Below are positions 1 to 4,563 of a stretch of DNA of 64,000 bases, in pieces; position 1 is the stretch's first letter, and every line of letters starts with the position of its first letter. Under the pieces are notes generated by a model. That model did no database searches. It was not told where the DNA came from and was given only the letters and a program-made list of their open reading frames with translations. The translations under genes were made by a program, and so were the position numbers. The DNA is from Candidatus Bathyarchaeota archaeon (lineage in GTDB: Archaea > Thermoproteota > Bathyarchaeia > Bathyarchaeales > Bathycorpusculaceae). The stretch covers positions 1 to 64,000 of the forward strand of contig JAOZIH010000008.1 of assembly GCA_026014545.1 (NCBI GenBank), given 5' to 3'.

Positions 1-1
1 A

Positions 2-67
2 CGGCCAAGCGGCAAATGCCACAGCGTATGGCGCTGCATGAACATCCACGTAACCCAGGAGGCATAA
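2..67 (+). CDS. C-terminal end of an unknown element gene (partial)
   Basis: One frame is open from the window edge and stops at TAA 65-67, seven bases before the next start, with the next gene's GGAGG (58-62) inside its last codons. Only about 21 residues are visible, with two cysteines (KCHS, WRCM). The spacing fits the packed layout of the following genes. Another frame is open further, to base 191, so the assignment is tentative. Confidence 0.3.
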   Translation, partial: RPSGKCHSVWRCMNIHVTQEA

Positions 68-73
68 GCGCAG

Positions 74-472
74 ATGGCATCCGCGGCCACAGCAGCAACC
101 CTGACCAGCAGCGACGCACTGCAGCAGAGGCTAACAGCGCTGGAAACGCAGCTGCGCGAAATCACCGACATACTCGAACAAGTCGCCCATGACGCCGACC
201 TCCTAAGCTGCAACATCATCCGCGCCCTCAAACATAAACAACAGCAGCAGGAGCAGCGCCAGTGGACCTGGGATCCAACACGAATCCGCTGGGAACGCGA
301 TGAGGGCTTCAAGGGGCCCTACGAGAAAACCGAAGACTACACTTCAGCGGACTACAAGGCCCTGCTCGCCGATCTCCAAGCGCACAAGGGCAAACTCACA
401 CGCGACGGCATCTTCTACTGGACCTTCGAAAACGGCGCCACGATAGGCCGCAAACAGGTGACCCGAAAATGA
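74..472 (+). CDS. Unknown element protein with N-terminal coiled coil
   Basis: This is a 132-residue soluble protein. Residues about 12-60 form a heptad-like leucine/glutamine-rich helix (LQQRLTALETQLREITDIL) likely to be a coiled coil, followed by a QQQQEQRQ stretch and a Trp-rich segment. The C-terminal 30 residues (DGIFYWTFENGATIGRK) look like a small beta domain. GGAGG lies 11 bases before the ATG. The stop overlaps the next start (ATGA), suggesting coupled translation. I do not recognise the family. Confidence 0.65.
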   Translation: MASAATAATLTSSDALQQRLTALETQLREITDILEQVAHDADLLSCNIIRALKHKQQQQEQRQWTWDPTRIRWERDEGFKGPYEKTEDYTSADYKALLADLQAHKGKLTRDGIFYWTFENGATIGRKQVTRK

Positions 473-618
473 CGCGGAAATATATCTGTGACAACTGTGG
501 CAAAGAGTTCCAACATGAAACCGCAGTTTGCAACATTGAGTTCCACATGGACGCCCGCGAACTCAAACGCCTAATCGACGCAGTCATCCGCGCAGAAATC
601 CAACTGGAGGCACTCTAA
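469..618 (+). CDS. 49-residue zinc-ribbon/shared-helix chimera
   Basis: This small gene starts at ATG 469, overlapping the previous stop in an ATGA junction. Residues 1-22 hold a CxxC (YICDNCGKEFQ) and a later Cys, a possible half zinc finger. From residue 24 to the end, EFHMDARELKRLIDAVIRAE and following residues are identical to the C-terminus of the protein at 2073-2444, because both use copies of a perfect 75-bp repeat in the same frame. It therefore looks like a fusion of a zinc-binding head with a borrowed helix, or a truncated paralogue. Function unknown. Confidence 0.55.
   Translation: MTRKYICDNCGKEFQHETAVCNIEFHMDARELKRLIDAVIRAEIQLEAL
538..612 (+). repeat. 75-bp perfect direct repeat, copy 1
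   Basis: It is identical base for base to 2361-2435, in the same orientation and the same reading frame. It encodes the last 25 residues before the final codon(s) of the small gene and ends with GGAGGCA, so it also carries a Shine-Dalgarno sequence for whatever follows. Flanks on both sides differ. The lack of third-position changes means a recent duplication or ongoing gene conversion. Confidence 0.95.
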
Positions 619-619
619 T

Positions 620-739
620 ATGCTTTTTAGAAAAGAGGATAGAGCTGGCGACTTCACATATGCTCACTCATTTACGTTCCATGCAATTTTGACATTTTCA
701 CGCAAATTTTACGTTATTTATTGGAGGAATATTGATTGA
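620..739 (+). CDS. Possible 39-residue peptide
   Basis: ATG 620 follows GGAGG (606-610, inside the 75-bp repeat) by nine bases, and the TGA stop overlaps the TTG start of the next gene. The product is Phe/Tyr-rich with a hydrophobic middle (FHAILTFSRKFYVIYW). Against it, the stretch 655-722 is AT-rich and could instead be a promoter for the gene at 736. I favour a real but small gene only weakly. Confidence 0.33.
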   Translation: MLFRKEDRAGDFTYAHSFTFHAILTFSRKFYVIYWRNID

Positions 740-1056
740 TTAGTGTCATGGAAAAACCGCGTACCCACCTAAAAAAGCGCATATGCAAAGGCAAAGTCCA
801 TACAAAAGCTGACACTCTTGAGAAATATATAATTTCAGACGAGCGAGACCTTCCAATGCTGCACACAGGCGCTGACATTAGTCGCCCGTTGAATGCCATG
901 CGCCTTGCGGAATATCACAAGTGTAAAGATTGCCTAACGCTCCCAGTTCTGTACATTCAATACAAGACTGAGAAAGGTCACAAGCGCCAGGTAGGCTTGT
1001 GTGAGCGTCATTGGGGACGGTTGGCGGATACGGTTATCGGATGGAAAGGAGACTAA
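736..1056 (+). CDS. Unknown element protein with CxxC...CxxxH zinc site
   Basis: 106 residues. TTG 736 is chosen over ATG 748 because GGAGG (723-727) lies 8 bases before the TTG. The N-terminus is very basic (KPRTHLKKRICKGKVHTK). Residues about 62-95 carry CKDC and then CERH, a plausible single zinc site of treble-clef type. Small basic zinc proteins are common DNA-binding proteins in archaeal viruses and plasmids, but no family is recognised. Confidence 0.62.
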   Translation: MISVMEKPRTHLKKRICKGKVHTKADTLEKYIISDERDLPMLHTGADISRPLNAMRLAEYHKCKDCLTLPVLYIQYKTEKGHKRQVGLCERHWGRLADTVIGWKGD

Positions 1057-1059
1057 AAA

Positions 1060-1545
1060 ATGAAGATCTATACGGATGATCCGCATTTGCCCTATAAAAC
1101 TACGCGGTTGAATGCGCTTTATACTAAGGCGGAGATTGACGGCTTATTCGCTAAGTGGGGCATTAAGGACGTGTATTGGCATTGGGACCCTGAGCACAAT
1201 GATGTTTACGTCATGTTCAAGATCCACGAGGAAATCGACGGCATACCTGTGAATGTTTCTGCCCGCGTGGATTGCCCAGTAATTTGGGATCATAAGACGC
1301 GGAACAGGGCGGAAGCGCCTAACTGGAACATCAGCATGCGTGTCATGTACTGGTACATTAAATCGCACTTGGAAGCCGCTTACCTGTTGCAGAGTAGCAA
1401 AGCTGCGGCGTTTCTGCCTGACTTAAGCGGCAAAGACGAGAAGCAAACGCTGAAGGACATTATCATTCCGCACATCAGTGACATCCAAAAGTTGACAGCG
1501 CTGCCAAAGGCGCCTATTGTTGTTGACCAAGCGGAGGAAACTTAA
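1060..1545 (+). CDS. Unknown 161-residue element protein
   Basis: It starts three bases after the previous stop, with AAGGAG upstream. The N-terminal 70 residues are Trp/Tyr/Asp-rich and look like an alpha-beta domain (YWHWDPEHNDVYVMFKIHEE). The middle has NWNISMRVMYWYIKSHLEAAY, probably an amphipathic helix, and the C-terminus is helical and charged. No catalytic motif or membrane segment is evident. Its codon use is more G/T-rich than the A/C-rich genes at 74-472 and 1636-2713, hinting that the element was assembled from different sources. Confidence 0.6.
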   Translation: MKIYTDDPHLPYKTTRLNALYTKAEIDGLFAKWGIKDVYWHWDPEHNDVYVMFKIHEEIDGIPVNVSARVDCPVIWDHKTRNRAEAPNWNISMRVMYWYIKSHLEAAYLLQSSKAAAFLPDLSGKDEKQTLKDIIIPHISDIQKLTALPKAPIVVDQAEET

Positions 1546-1632
1546 TTGAAACGCGCTTTGTTGCCGCTCGTTTTTCCCGCAATATGCCTACTCTGGACCG
1601 TAGCTTGGCTAATGTACGTGGGAGGACGCTGA
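1546..1632 (+). CDS. 28-residue single-pass membrane peptide
   Basis: TTG 1546 follows the previous stop directly and has GGAGGA (1533-1538) 7 bases upstream. The peptide has two basic residues and then one long hydrophobic segment (LLPLVFPAICLLWTVAWLMY), enough to cross a membrane once. Its last codons carry the GGAGG for the gene at 1636. Size, SD and position between two tightly spaced genes support it. Membrane micropeptides of this type occur in archaeal viruses, but no function can be assigned. Confidence 0.5.
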   Translation: MKRALLPLVFPAICLLWTVAWLMYVGGR

Positions 1633-1635
1633 ACT

Positions 1636-1851
1636 ATGCCACGGTACTATCACCTATACACTACGCACGGCCGCATAGACATCCGCGAACTCACACCAAG
1701 AGAATACCTCAGCTTCAGCGCACGCAACTATCTATTAGCGATCGCGCATGAAGACGGCACAATCAACCTGGTTAAGGGCCGCAACATAATCACGCTGAAC
1801 CAGGAGCACCTGGAAAAACTGCTACAACTAACCAAGCCGATGGAGGCGTAG
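1636..1851 (+). CDS. Unknown 71-residue element protein
   Basis: ATG 1636 is preceded by GGAGG at 1620-1624. The predicted fold is a short beta meander (YYHLYTTHGRIDIRELTPRE) followed by strands (TINLVKGRNIITLN) and a C-terminal helix (EHLEKLLQLTK). The overall look is of a small SH3-like or AbrB-like regulator, which is only a guess. Codons are strongly A/C-rich at third positions. Confidence 0.55.
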   Translation: MPRYYHLYTTHGRIDIRELTPREYLSFSARNYLLAIAHEDGTINLVKGRNIITLNQEHLEKLLQLTKPMEA

Positions 1852-1854
1852 GCC

Positions 1855-2067
1855 ATGGGCTTCCCTGGGAAACGGAGCAATCAATCACTAAATTCACCAG
1901 AATCTCTCCCTTCTCCCCTCAATTCAAAGAATGCTCCGCCCAAAAAGGAAGCCAACGGCTACTACAACTTCCGCAGACAATTCGCCAAATGCAAACATTG
2001 CCGCCCAGGAGACCCCTGCAGATGGCACGGCGGAAAATATCGTTACTTCGGCCGAAAGAGAGGATGA
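1855..2067 (+). CDS. Small Cys/His-rich element protein
   Basis: 70 residues, with GGAGG 8 bases before ATG 1855. The first half is low complexity (Ser/Pro/Asn). The second half carries FAKCKHCRPGDPCRWHGGKY, a CxxC-x5-C-x2-H arrangement that could bind one zinc, ending in a basic tail (KYRYFGRKRG). The stop TGA overlaps an ATG (ATGA at 2064-2067). A nucleic-acid-binding role is possible but unproven. Confidence 0.55.
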   Translation: MGFPGKRSNQSLNSPESLPSPLNSKNAPPKKEANGYYNFRRQFAKCKHCRPGDPCRWHGGKYRYFGRKRG

Positions 2068-2072
2068 AAAGC

Positions 2073-2444
2073 ATGCAAAGCCTAAAACGCATACCAAACG
2101 GCACAGTATTCGGCGAGATCCCGCTGGAAGCCGCCAAGGCGTATCCAACACGCATTTGGCAAGGCACCGGCTTAGCGCCGCGTATAGCCTACGCCGACCT
2201 AAACACCCACGGCGAACACAACACGCTTTCGGTGAAGCTGCTACCCGACGGCGGCAAGACAGCGCCGCACCCGCAAATCGCCTTCTACATCAACGGCCCA
2301 TACCACACAGAAACACTTGGCTATGTACGTAGTAACCCATACACATGGACCACGTGGATGGAGTTCCACATGGACGCCCGCGAACTCAAACGCCTAATCG
2401 ACGCAGTCATCCGCGCAGAAATCCAACTGGAGGCAATGCAATGA
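2073..2444 (+). CDS. Unknown element protein ending in the repeat-encoded helix
   Basis: 123 residues from ATG 2073, which has GAGAGG 9 bases upstream. ATG 2064, overlapping the previous stop, is the alternative start. The body looks like a beta-rich domain (NGTVFGEIPLEAA, HNTLSVKLLPDGG, PQIAFYINGPYHTETLGYV). The final 27 residues (EFHMDARELKRLIDAVIRAE and on) form a charged helix encoded by the second copy of the 75-bp repeat and shared with the small gene at 469. Its stop overlaps the next ATG. No known family recognised. Confidence 0.6.
   Translation: MQSLKRIPNGTVFGEIPLEAAKAYPTRIWQGTGLAPRIAYADLNTHGEHNTLSVKLLPDGGKTAPHPQIAFYINGPYHTETLGYVRSNPYTWTTWMEFHMDARELKRLIDAVIRAEIQLEAMQ
2361..2435 (+). 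repeat. 75-bp perfect direct repeat, copy 2
   Basis: Identical to 538-612. Here it encodes the C-terminal helix of the 123-residue protein and again ends with GGAGGCA, which provides the SD for the gene starting at 2441 (10 bases downstream). Recombination between the two copies would excise or invert-free delete 1,823 bp containing seven genes. Confidence 0.95.
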
Positions 2445-2713
2445 GCAAAAAGGTTTTGGTTGAAGCCCAGACACACCACAGACAAGGTGAACCCGACTTG
2501 ACCTCCATCCAGGAGTTCAAGCGGCACCTGACAAGTCTAACACAGCAACTCAGAAACATAGACGAAAAAGCCAAAACCATAGCCAACAGCAAAAATTGCA
2601 TTTATAACGTAAAAGTTATCGAGAAAACCCAGAGTACATTCTGCGCGAAACTCGACCAATGGGTAAGCAGCAGATACTGCAGCATCTGCCACGATTTTTC
2701 CCCAACGAGGTGA
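2441..2713 (+). CDS. Unknown helical element protein with C-terminal CxxC
   Basis: 90 residues from ATG 2441, overlapping the previous stop (ATGA), with GGAGG at 2426-2430. Residues 20-55 are helical and coiled-coil-like (QEFKRHLTSLTQQLRNIDEK). The C-terminus has YCSICHDF and an earlier Cys, perhaps a zinc knuckle. It is the last of the A/C-rich block of coupled genes. Function unknown. Confidence 0.55.
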   Translation: MSKKVLVEAQTHHRQGEPDLTSIQEFKRHLTSLTQQLRNIDEKAKTIANSKNCIYNVKVIEKTQSTFCAKLDQWVSSRYCSICHDFSPTR

Positions 2714-2734
2714 ATTCTGAAGCCATGTAGTACC

Positions 2735-2860
2735 AGGAGAGAATGAATGTATGAATGAATGTAATGCATATGTACGTACGTACTTACGTATCCTCTCTCC
2801 TTACACTATACTCTCTTTTTTTGTCTTCTATCCTCTCTCCCACGTACATTCATAAGGTGA
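2735..2860. repeat. Repeat-rich intergenic region of the element
   Basis: The gap between two genes is made of short iterated motifs: GAATGAATGTATGAATGAATG (2741-2761, direct TGAATG/ATGAATG units), TACGTACGTACTTACGTA around 2773-2790, and TATCCTCTCTCC twice at 2789-2800 and 2829-2840. ATGAATGTA at the left is matched by TACATTCAT (2845-2853) in inverted orientation at the right. Such iterons are typical of replication origins or operator arrays. An origin role is inference. Confidence 0.45.
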
Positions 2861-2865
2861 GTCGC

Positions 2866-3282
2866 ATGGCATTGCCCAATACAAAACAGCACATAATCAG
2901 GTTGTGTTTGGCGCCTGAGCTTAGAAGCGCCTTGATCAAGTACATGGCCAAGCATGACTTGGATAAGGAGTATGCTGCGCTTCACCTGCTTGTTAAAGCG
3001 CTCTATGCTGAGCAGCTGATTTCGAAGGAGGTTTATGAGGTCTTCAGCTACCGTTATAGTCGCCGGCTTGTCCGCAATGATCTTGAGCGGTTGATGACGC
3101 AGGAGCAGCTTCGCGAGAAGCAGCAACTTGAACATAAGGCCAAACTTTTCAGCATGGTGCTGGATCAGTGGCACTTGCACGGCGAGGAATGGCGGAGAAA
3201 ATGGATCGCTGAAGCTGAGAAATGGCGAGACAAGGTTCCAAACGCTCAGCTCATACTAGACTTGGGAAATGGCGGAAAATAA
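2866..3282 (+). CDS. Unknown basic helical element protein
   Basis: 138 residues from ATG 2866, chosen because AGGTGA (2855-2860) lies five bases upstream and the extension to 2755 would run through the repeat-rich gap. The N-terminal 60 residues (IIRLCLAPELRSALIKYMAK) resemble a small helical, possibly ribbon-helix-helix-like, domain. The remainder is a long charged helix rich in Glu/Lys/Arg. Its codon use is G/T-rich like 736-1545. Function unknown. Confidence 0.6.
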   Translation: MALPNTKQHIIRLCLAPELRSALIKYMAKHDLDKEYAALHLLVKALYAEQLISKEVYEVFSYRYSRRLVRNDLERLMTQEQLREKQQLEHKAKLFSMVLDQWHLHGEEWRRKWIAEAEKWRDKVPNAQLILDLGNGGK

Positions 3283-3309
3283 TGAATTTCGGAAAAAAAC
3301 ATTAACCTC

Positions 3310-3337
3310 CATGCGCATATGCGTACACGCACGCATG
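3310..3337. repeat. Inverted repeat before int(N)
   Basis: CATGCG (3310-3315) and CGCATG (3332-3337) are inverted around a centre that itself contains GCATATGC, just upstream of the SD of the int(N) gene. The product has an RHH/CcdA-like head, a class that often autoregulates through such palindromes. An operator role is inference. Confidence 0.3.
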
Positions 3338-3351
3338 GGGAGAAGGTTGGA

Positions 3352-3588
3352 ATGGTGAAGGTAAAAGTGAGCGTAAACATCGACAAAGAAGTCTACGAAA
3401 AAAGCAAGCAGCTTGGCGTAAACGTCAGTCAAGCCTGCACAAACTATCTAAAACTCCTAAACGCCCAAATAGAAGCCACCCTCGCCGAAAACAAAGGCTT
3501 TCTTGGTCAAGCTTCTTTCACGAAAGAAGGTTGGTGCGGTCGCCGGGATTTGAACCCGGGTCGTCAACGTGGCAGGCTGATGTCCTAG
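3352..3588 (+). CDS. Integrase N-terminal fragment, int(N), running into tRNA-Gly
   Basis: The start is ATG 3352, with a purine-rich GGGGAGAAGG 5-14 bases upstream. Residues 1-55 (VKVSVNIDKEVYEKSKQLGV, then NVSQACTNYLKLL) resemble a CcdA/ribbon-helix-helix domain. The last residues, WCGRRDLNPGRQRGRLMS, are the translation of the reverse strand of the tRNA 3' half, a peptide style seen in SSV-type integrases whose gene contains attP. The frame stays open through the T arm and anticodon loop and stops at TAG 3586-3588 in the D arm, where host sequence would have replaced the rest of the gene. A CcdA-like antitoxin that happens to run into the tRNA is the alternative. No tyrosine-recombinase catalytic residue is expected in this half. 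Confidence 0.6.
   Translation: MVKVKVSVNIDKEVYEKSKQLGVNVSQACTNYLKLLNAQIEATLAENKGFLGQASFTKEGWCGRRDLNPGRQRGRLMS
3512..3529. repeat. Perfect 8-bp inverted repeat beside the att site
   Basis: CTTCTTTC and GAAAGAAG are separated by two bases and end three bases before the CCA of the tRNA. In tRNA-sense RNA it would form a hairpin right after the CCA. It could help end the tRNA transcript, mark an integrase arm site, or simply be part of the att region carried by the element. Confidence 0.55.
3535..3575. other. Candidate att core (3' half of tRNA-Gly)
   Basis: The segment covers discriminator base, acceptor 3' strand, T arm and anticodon stem-loop of the tRNA. SSV-type elements normally share this half of the tRNA as the crossover region, and the int(N) frame is open across it. 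The exact borders cannot be set without the second att copy, which lies outside the window. Confidence 0.45.
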
Positions 3589-3609
3589 ACCAGACTAGAC
3601 TACGACCGC
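3535..3609 (-). tRNA. tRNA-Gly (anticodon GCC)
   Basis: Read on the minus strand: acceptor GCGGTCG/CGACCGC, a 4-bp D stem (GTCT/GGAC), anticodon arm TCAGC-CTGCCAC-GTTGA with anticodon GCC, variable CGAC, and T arm CCGGG-TTCAAAT-CCCGG, discriminator A. All stems pair. CCA is genomically encoded at 3534-3532. There is no intron. A TATA-like TTATGTTAAAA lies about 20-32 bases upstream. The 3' half serves as integration target for the element to its left and remains intact. Confidence 0.95.
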
Positions 3610-4104
3610 TACACCTATGCTACGTACATTTTTAACATAAACAGGTGCTTATTTTCTTTTTCGGAACAGCTTACGGCTATCCATGAGAGTAACATACTCG
3701 AAGCTTGCTTACGCCAGTTGCGTAGCCTCATCAAGGGTTTTGGTAACTTTGCATATGTACTCGTTATTCTAGAAGCTTGCCGGTTAAGTGTAAATTAACG
3801 TGTGATCTCCTTAGATCCCAAAAGCTGTTTTACTTCCAGCGTTAGTGGAAAAATACTCTGACTACCGCGTAAGCAAAAATTGAAAAGCGATTGTCGGGAT
3901 AAAGAAAGGATTATTATTCACTCGTCCTTTTTCAATGATATTTCATTCAGGAGAGCTTAATAAAGTGCGTAGACGAAGATGTGAAATGACTCACTGCGTT
4001 AACAATGTTGGCGGATAATGCCATTCAGGTCGAATAAGTAAGTGGCTAGGACTTTGTCGTTTCAAACGAAGATCTGACTAGACTGCAACTGCTTTTTCAG
4101 CATG
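3610..4104. other. Gene-free stretch beside the tRNA
   Basis: About 490 bases without a convincing reading frame on either strand. Apart from the tRNA promoter at its left edge I see only a weak repeated GAAGCTTGC (near 3700 and 3770) and AT-rich sequence. There is no second tRNA, CRISPR or insertion sequence. It could hold a non-coding RNA that I cannot recognise. Confidence 0.5.
3629..3641 (-). promoter_or_regulatory. Probable TATA box of tRNA-Gly
   Basis: The minus-strand sequence TTATGTTAAAA sits 20-32 bases upstream of the mature tRNA 5' end, the usual archaeal box A distance. It is AT-rich within a mixed surrounding. No other candidate is as well placed. Confidence 0.4.
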
Positions 4105-4563
4105 CTATCGTATGCTTTCATTAAAAGGCGATGTTTCCAAGCGTACAGTTTGCATTGTTTTTTGCAGAAAGTGATATTCGGTAATATTGAATAGGTGGCT
4201 TTTGCAGTGGCAATCCGAGCAACCGAAACCTGCAACAGGCGTGCCTTTTTTGCTGATCGCTTGGGCAAGCAAGCATTCCCCGCTTTTGTCTGCTTCCTTG
4301 TAAAAAACTTTGGTTACTTTCGCCGCGCGGTGGTTGAGCAAATAGTCTATGTGCCAAAATAAGCGTTTTTCTCTTCTAAGATGACGTTTTAGCCGATGGG
4401 CCAAATTAGTCTGCGCGGAGCCGATGTATACGTATAATCCCTTTTTGAATGTCAATTTGCCCAAAGTGCCAACGCACAGATTTATATCACTGTCTAATTG
4501 GATGATTAAAGCGTAAATACCCTTCAAAGTGCTCAACTGTTCCTTGATTCTTGGAGCGGACAT
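4105..4563 (-). CDS. DUF123 GIY-YIG-type nuclease-like protein
   Basis: 152 residues of the DUF123 family, an archaeal/thermophile offshoot of the GIY-YIG nuclease fold that is sometimes fused to endonuclease III. Visible signatures are KGIYALIIQL near residue 14, the GLYVYIGSAQTNLAHRLKRH core around 42-61 (the YIG half, with the following Arg/His), HIDYLL near 72, and CLLAQAIS near 98. The C-terminal FGCSDCHCKSHLF is Cys/His-rich and may bind metal. It presumably cuts or binds DNA, but substrate is unknown. It is monocistronic. Confidence 0.82.
   Translation of the reverse strand: MSAPRIKEQLSTLKGIYALIIQLDSDINLCVGTLGKLTFKKGLYVYIGSAQTNLAHRLKRHLRREKRLFWHIDYLLNHRAAKVTKVFYKEADKSGECLLAQAISKKGTPVAGFGCSDCHCKSHLFNITEYHFLQKTMQTVRLETSPFNESIR

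Follow-up and report, generated by a model that had tools for sequence, protein, structure and literature searches.

A gene that runs into a tRNA gene and stops within it may do so by chance, or it may be one piece of a larger gene that has been taken apart at the tRNA. Which of these holds is the question raised by the left end of the window analyzed here, a stretch of 64,000 nucleotides from Candidatus Bathyarchaeota archaeon (GenBank assembly GCA_026014545.1, contig JAOZIH010000008.1, positions 1 to 64,000), where an open reading frame (ORF) at 3352–3588 overlaps a gene for tRNA-Gly(GCC). Base 1 of the window is base 1 of the contig (here C21), and the source genome (G000) amounts to 1.86 Mb in 41 contigs and is 98% complete. 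A first-pass annotation, made from the sequence alone, had proposed an integrated element whose integrase gene is split at this tRNA. We reach the same answer: very probably, window 1–3531 is the right-hand, tRNA-side part of an integrated element of a bathyarchaeon with a suicidal (SSV-type) integrase, in which the element's attachment site (attP) lies inside its own integrase gene. This conclusion is carried by a second copy of the attachment (att) sequence, an in-frame second half of the gene at that copy, and an unsplit homologue.

The ORF on the plus strand at 3352–3588 encodes 78 amino acids (an ATG at 3319 would give 89). It enters the intact tRNA-Gly(GCC) (3532–3609, minus strand, found by ARAGORN) at the 3' end and continues through the T arm and anticodon loop; as had been described, it ends in the D arm, the stop codon at 3586–3588 falling on tRNA nucleotides 22–24. 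The suggestion that its N-terminal part is of the CcdA or ribbon-helix-helix (RHH) type agrees with a match of the first 48 residues to Pfam CcdA at 30.0 bits (gathering cut-off 22.4). This domain is followed by a tRNA-encoded linker, GRRDLNPGRQRGR, and a short read-through, and we refer to the whole as int(N), the N-terminal part of the integrase gene. The peptide GRRDLNPGR in the linker had been taken as a sign of an SSV-type integrase. Antisense T arms commonly read as peptides of this kind, and the peptide is not evidence by itself because the T arm of a tRNA simply reads so in that frame; the location of attP inside an integrase gene did stand. What does argue for a split gene is that its second half lies in frame at another copy of this tRNA segment.

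A DNA search of the same genome located that copy. The att core (window 3532–3575), 44 bp from the tRNA 3' end to the anticodon loop, recurs exactly on the minus strand of another contig (C16:641–684), and the two copies are identical over these 44 bp only, with no extension on either side. ARAGORN did not recognize the C16 copy as a tRNA. A duplication of 3535–3575 had been anticipated to the left of the window; the segment is indeed duplicated, but its exact span is 3532–3575 and it lies on C16, not C21, since C21 begins at window base 1. The frame that starts in the C16 copy is open to the contig end and contains a box I-like arginine (SGLR). Joining window 3352–3575 to C16:640–1 gives one ORF of 288 amino acids, still open at the contig end. 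The C-terminal half of a recombinase, int(C), expected at the second copy was thus present as an in-frame ORF with the box I arginine, but C16 ends before the HxxR motif and tyrosine, so that the later catalytic positions fall beyond it; R306 and Y338 (numbering of the unsplit protein described below) are nearly invariant in the family. Pfam Phage_integr_3 (PF16795) was matched by 14 of 15 family members (E ≤ 1) and gave no match to the truncated int(C) on C16. A search of the same genome with Phage_integrase (PF00589) found four other integrases, the split integrase not being among them. One candidate for the missing half, the terminal integrase of contig C27, was rejected: it is XerA-like and overlaps the part already present on C16. 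C27 itself (locus L017, 8.6 kb) has ORFs resembling, by eye, a XerA-like integrase, ParB, TFB, a glycosyltransferase and a nucleotide kinase, and probably represents a further mobile element, or a virus, of G000.

An unsplit form of the gene was found in Candidatus Bathyarchaeota metagenome-assembled genome (MAG) PFL2 (JALHSQ010000203.1, contig G032:C158, loci L086/L099) as a single ORF of 364 amino acids. Its first 60 residues are the RHH part of the type seen in the window and are homologous to int(N), and the rest is the catalytic part; an alignment of 299 columns with the joined 288-residue ORF gives 51% identity. The protein passes the Pfam thresholds for both CcdA (22.9, cut-off 22.4) and Phage_integr_3 (27.2, cut-off 27). 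Its att is the same tRNA-Gly segment, inside the ORF and in a different codon phase, and 44 of 46 bases of this attP are identical in the att core of the window. In addition, the PFL2 MAG contains an intact tRNA-Gly(GCC) that shares the two variant bases of its att, and no RHH int(N) occurs in any frame at that tRNA. Two further genes of the window are common to the PFL2 contig. From this contig we infer that the PFL2 integrase represents the free form of the element; no circular overlap was seen on the contig. Two more unsplit proteins (L176:208–1356 and L177:836–2017), recovered with the RHH int(N) profile described below, have an RHH head and a tRNA-like linker before a Phage_integrase (PF00589) catalytic part, i.e., the same head on another recombinase lineage; their CcdA scores are 24.7 for L177, above the cut-off, and 21.5 for L176, narrowly under it.

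The model of the unsplit protein resembles the SSV1 catalytic domains (3uxu and 3vcf; TM-score 0.67–0.70 by target, match probability close to or at certainty), its N-terminal 80 residues being of low confidence. In the model of int(N), two confident helices follow a non-helical N-terminal stretch. With the int(C) of a second split pair in the same genome (contig C24, see below) as query, homologues were found in 50 of 151 relatives, and distant homologues of the split integrase occur in Nitrosocosmicus. The PDB sequence search with the integrase profile returned nothing, phage and plasmid collections gave no tblastn match, and a viral contig collection yielded no true relatives when the queries were int(N), an alignment of the integrases, the ATPase of PFL2 and the protein of 2085–2441. 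One match of int(N) in that collection (L085) was spurious, on an unrelated contig.

The sequence of events that these observations suggest would be as follows. In the free element the integrase would be complete, with part of a tRNA inside its gene serving as attP. This attP would lie between the N-terminal RHH (CcdA-like) domain and the core-binding/catalytic part; it would consist of the 3' part of tRNA-Gly(GCC), read antisense and translated as the linker. Recombination of attP with the tRNA gene would restore the tRNA, leave int(N) running into it and place int(C) at the distal att copy on C16, with C16 and C21 joined through the missing middle. Strand exchange may occur in or near the anticodon loop, and the RHH domain may serve DNA (arm-site) binding or multimerization. 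Integration would split and presumably silence the integrase, so that excision would need a complete integrase supplied in trans by another element.

The corresponding empty site is seen in a congener (G001, locus L121), in which a partial mscS, the same tRNA-Gly(GCC) and a homologue of the chromosomal gene to the right of the tRNA in the window (4105–4563, minus strand; 66% identity over 140 amino acids) are contiguous. An attB (the chromosomal target site) reconstructed in silico from the C16 flank, the core and the C21 flank aligns with the congener through the core at 77.5%, and ARAGORN folded it as tRNA-Gly. Between the tRNA and 4105–4563 the window has a spacer of about 495 bp (3610–4104) vs about 43 bp in the congener, possibly the remnant of another insertion.

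The arrangement is repeated within the same genome and in relatives. A second split pair of G000 has its int(C) at C24:7087–7995 (L016), starting in a tRNA-Thr core and complete to the stop codon, and the matching RHH int(N) at C3:114768–115162 (L167), ending in an intact tRNA-Thr(GGT) at the end of C3. In relatives there are 20 elements of about 2.8–14 kb in which one repeat carries int(C) and the other belongs to an intact tRNA, entered by an open frame in the phase of int(C). Their repeats are mostly 40–75 bp (some 25–32), and their targets are tRNAs for Gly, Ala, Glu, Pro, Lys, Met, Thr, Arg, Val and Phe; in some, such as that of G086, the recognizable N-module is degenerate or short. Both 5' and 3' tRNA halves are used within one integrase family. 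Two insertions (L095 in G007 and L151 in G053) occupy the 5' half of tRNA-Val(GAC). Such an insertion would put int(N) before the restored tRNA, and the tRNA promoter may therefore now be that of the element. The complete element of G002 (13.2 kb, tRNA-Ala) shares two genes with the window, one of them beside its int(C). Three complete split-integrase elements (L090, L091 and L092, in G045, G037 and G093) are only 3.7–4.1 kb and are possibly satellites; that of G093 has a P-loop ATPase-like gene resembling, by eye, one in the PFL2 contig.

Several points weigh against the proposed reading. The two contigs that would carry the halves, C16 and C21, are not joined in this MAG, and the middle of the element and the last ~75 amino acids of int(C), including the catalytic tyrosine, are absent from the assembled sequence (several contigs below 3 kb read N). 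Neither a circular junction nor a transcript was seen. The RHH fold of int(N) rests on the Pfam CcdA match and the two predicted helices, and a fold search with its model gave nothing useful. Finally, the unsplit model gave weak E-values in Foldseek, the best being 1.5e-3.

Among other explanations, the one that survives best concerns the present state of the element and is compatible with the proposed origin: the integration may be old and immobile, its split halves being pseudogenes without selection. Such decay is a minority view but one with appreciable weight, given that neither int(N) nor int(C) is considered active once a suicidal element has integrated (PMC8371274) and that some relatives, e.g. 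G020, have frameshifted or stop-containing copies. Here, however, both halves are open, the core copies are identical over 44 bp, and the neighboring ORFs are intact and shared with other elements.

Could 3352–3588 instead be an independent gene, for a CcdA-like antitoxin or an RHH regulator, that ends in the tRNA by chance? Its Pfam match is to CcdA, and an RHH profile also matches RHH ORFs elsewhere in many genomes. The unsplit integrases of PFL2, L176 and L177, however, carry the same domain as a fused head, the reading frame continues at the second att copy, and no toxin gene was recognized beside the ORF by Pfam or PHROG. When a profile of RHH int(N) was run over 257 genomes of the class, most of the top matches abutted or entered tRNAs; the 97-genome tally of profile matches is not an element count because the lower matches include RHH ORFs without a checked tRNA. 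This explanation fails because of the fusions and the tRNA association of the best matches, and we consider it very improbable. A conserved stand-alone antitoxin family, against which the first-pass annotation had cautioned, was not what emerged. The int(N) fragment may keep a regulatory role after integration. Slighter still is the chance of a classical, non-suicidal integrase with attP outside its gene and the RHH ORF as a separate element gene; the genome does contain four other PF00589 integrases (one of them at the end of C27), but the start of int(C) falls within the att copy and is in phase with int(N), and the unsplit homologue has att within its ORF.

If the suicidal-integrase reading is accepted, the position of att exactly between the modules suggests that N-terminal domains are exchanged between elements at att. 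The RHH head is one of several: besides seven further int(N) above the CcdA cut-off and one more just below, other int(N) have a CxxC domain (Zn-finger-like by eye; nothing significant in Pfam) or are of a third type. An independent RHH int(N) is found at tRNA-Gly(GCC) in L186. For comparison of the modules, int(N) and int(C) were aligned separately; a joint MAFFT alignment misplaced the int(N) rows. When the N-types are placed on a tree of the catalytic parts of 24 integrases, at least 6 changes are needed, a raw count from a tree in which several forks are unsupported. The catalytic parts of G025 and G069, which share the target tRNA-Ala(TGC), are 76% identical, and their int(N) only 28%. 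Each of these int(N) is nearer to that of an otherwise distant enzyme: G025 and G013 are 32% identical in the catalytic part and 45% in int(N), and G069 and G087a 34% and 55%, respectively. G053 has an RHH head closest to that of G103 within a mostly Zn-headed clade, and G044 is the reverse case.

Exchange of N-modules at att between elements would be the simplest reading of these comparisons, and it fits the chimera model of a review, in which swaps occur by homologous inversion (PMC8371274). The same pattern would result from a tandem array that was afterwards shortened by deletion. Stated for Bathyarchaeia as a whole, the chances seem to us evenly balanced that att inside the integrase gene is a module-exchange point. 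N-modules (RHH, Zn-finger-like and the third type) would then change partners through the tRNA-encoded linker, even where one catalytic part is SSV-like and the other XerC/D-like, and the route would be either tandem integration at a single tRNA or recombination of one element with another. If so, a tandem array alone would bring the int(N) of an element into frame with the int(C) of the element that follows, and the chimeric gene would be complete and able to drive excision. The family offers natural chimeras for direct testing of exchange at att.

Integrases that carry attP within the gene and are split there are well documented from other archaea (PMC8371274, PMC4158269, PMC6563490). The type I, suicidal integrases of SSV1/SSV2, pTN3 and pT26-2 share with the present family attP inside int, a tRNA target, the int(N)/int(C) split and the tRNA-derived peptide in the protein, as well as Phage_integr_3, which the review assigns to suicidal integrases, and an SSV1-like catalytic fold (PMC8371274). 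Unlike them, the integrases described here have an RHH/CcdA or Zn-finger-like N-module, and the hosts are Bathyarchaeia. Use of the 5' tRNA half is a pTN3-like peculiarity in the review, whereas both halves are used here. The review states that N-terminal regions are highly divergent, specifying nothing more, that the N-terminus controls multimerization in SSV2, and asks how gene-destroying integrases persist and change targets (PMC8371274). Huangdivirus, a spindle-shaped provirus of Bathyarchaeia (PMC10848311), is likewise an integrated element with a tyrosine recombinase; compared by description only, it is reported to have structural genes VP1-3, none of which was recognized in the window part. 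NitEve-E3 of Thaumarchaeota, another host lineage, has an SSV1-like split integrase in a cryptic element without recognized viral genes, and the portion of the report consulted does not mention an RHH-headed integrase (PMC6563490). In the Archaeoglobus provirus ArcVen-P3 the int(N) of a split SSV-like integrase had also stayed unannotated, but the RHH proteins of that element are described as separate small regulators, not as the integrase N-terminus (PMC4158269). The CcdAB toxin-antitoxin system shares the CcdA-like domain; here no CcdB toxin was recognized nearby and the domain is the integrase N-terminus.

The element and its gene families had been called undescribed. This applies to the RHH-headed family and to such elements in Bathyarchaeia, of which we found no description in the literature searched (many subscription papers lay outside it), but not to split integrases as such. 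What appears to be new, in the sense of not found in the literature and not proven for the RHH head, is the RHH/CcdA-type N-module with its alternatives, the use of both tRNA halves in one family, and the signs of N-module exchange at att. Self-splitting integrases are extended from Sulfolobales, Thermococcales, Archaeoglobales and Thaumarchaeota to many Bathyarchaeia, with a recognizable DNA-binding-type N-module where the review has only divergent N-terminal regions. For annotation, CcdA-like "antitoxins" that end in a tRNA gene may be integrase halves.

In the proposed order for the whole element, chromosomal DNA (with genes that by eye resemble those for MscS and aspartyl-tRNA synthetase) would be followed by att, int(C), the gap, the remaining element genes, int(N) and the tRNA. 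The left boundary lies beyond C21, the opposite end being on C16; the ends of the two contigs do not overlap (21–41 bases looked for). Further genes of the G002 and PFL2 elements were not found in the other stretches of G000 examined, and the middle of the element was therefore not recovered. The G+C content of 1–3531 is 49.9%, vs 46.9% for the remainder. The nine other ORFs tested left of the tRNA gave no trustworthy Pfam or PHROG match, in line with the earlier remark that nothing there looks chromosomal, and no match to VP1, VP3 or another capsid protein was found among the window ORFs or the scanned PFL2 proteins, the element middle being missing from the assembly.

Some of these ORFs, all on the plus strand, recur in other elements. 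The gene at 74–472 has homologues in the PFL2 (42% of 118 amino acids) and G045 loci; that at 736–1056, with CxxC/CxxxH motifs (zinc-binding by appearance only), is 73% identical to the gene beside the G002 int(C); and that at 2064–2444 is shared with the complete G002 element (71% of 124 amino acids) and the PFL2 element (69% of 119). ORFs at 1060–1545 and 1855–2067 (the latter containing Cys) had no match, and those at 1636–1851 and 2441–2713 no significant match. The gene beside int(N) (2866–3282) can be compared, as EEWRRKWIAEAEKWRDKVPNAQLILDLG, with EWRKKWILKAEEWKDKVPNAKLVLDLG at the end of C3, where the second split element of the genome carries the end of a similar gene at the corresponding position. 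Lastly, the 3' part of gene 2064–2444 is present twice, as a 78-bp near-exact (98.7%) duplication at 535–612 and 2358–2435, and the extra copy supplies the tail of a small ORF at 469–618.

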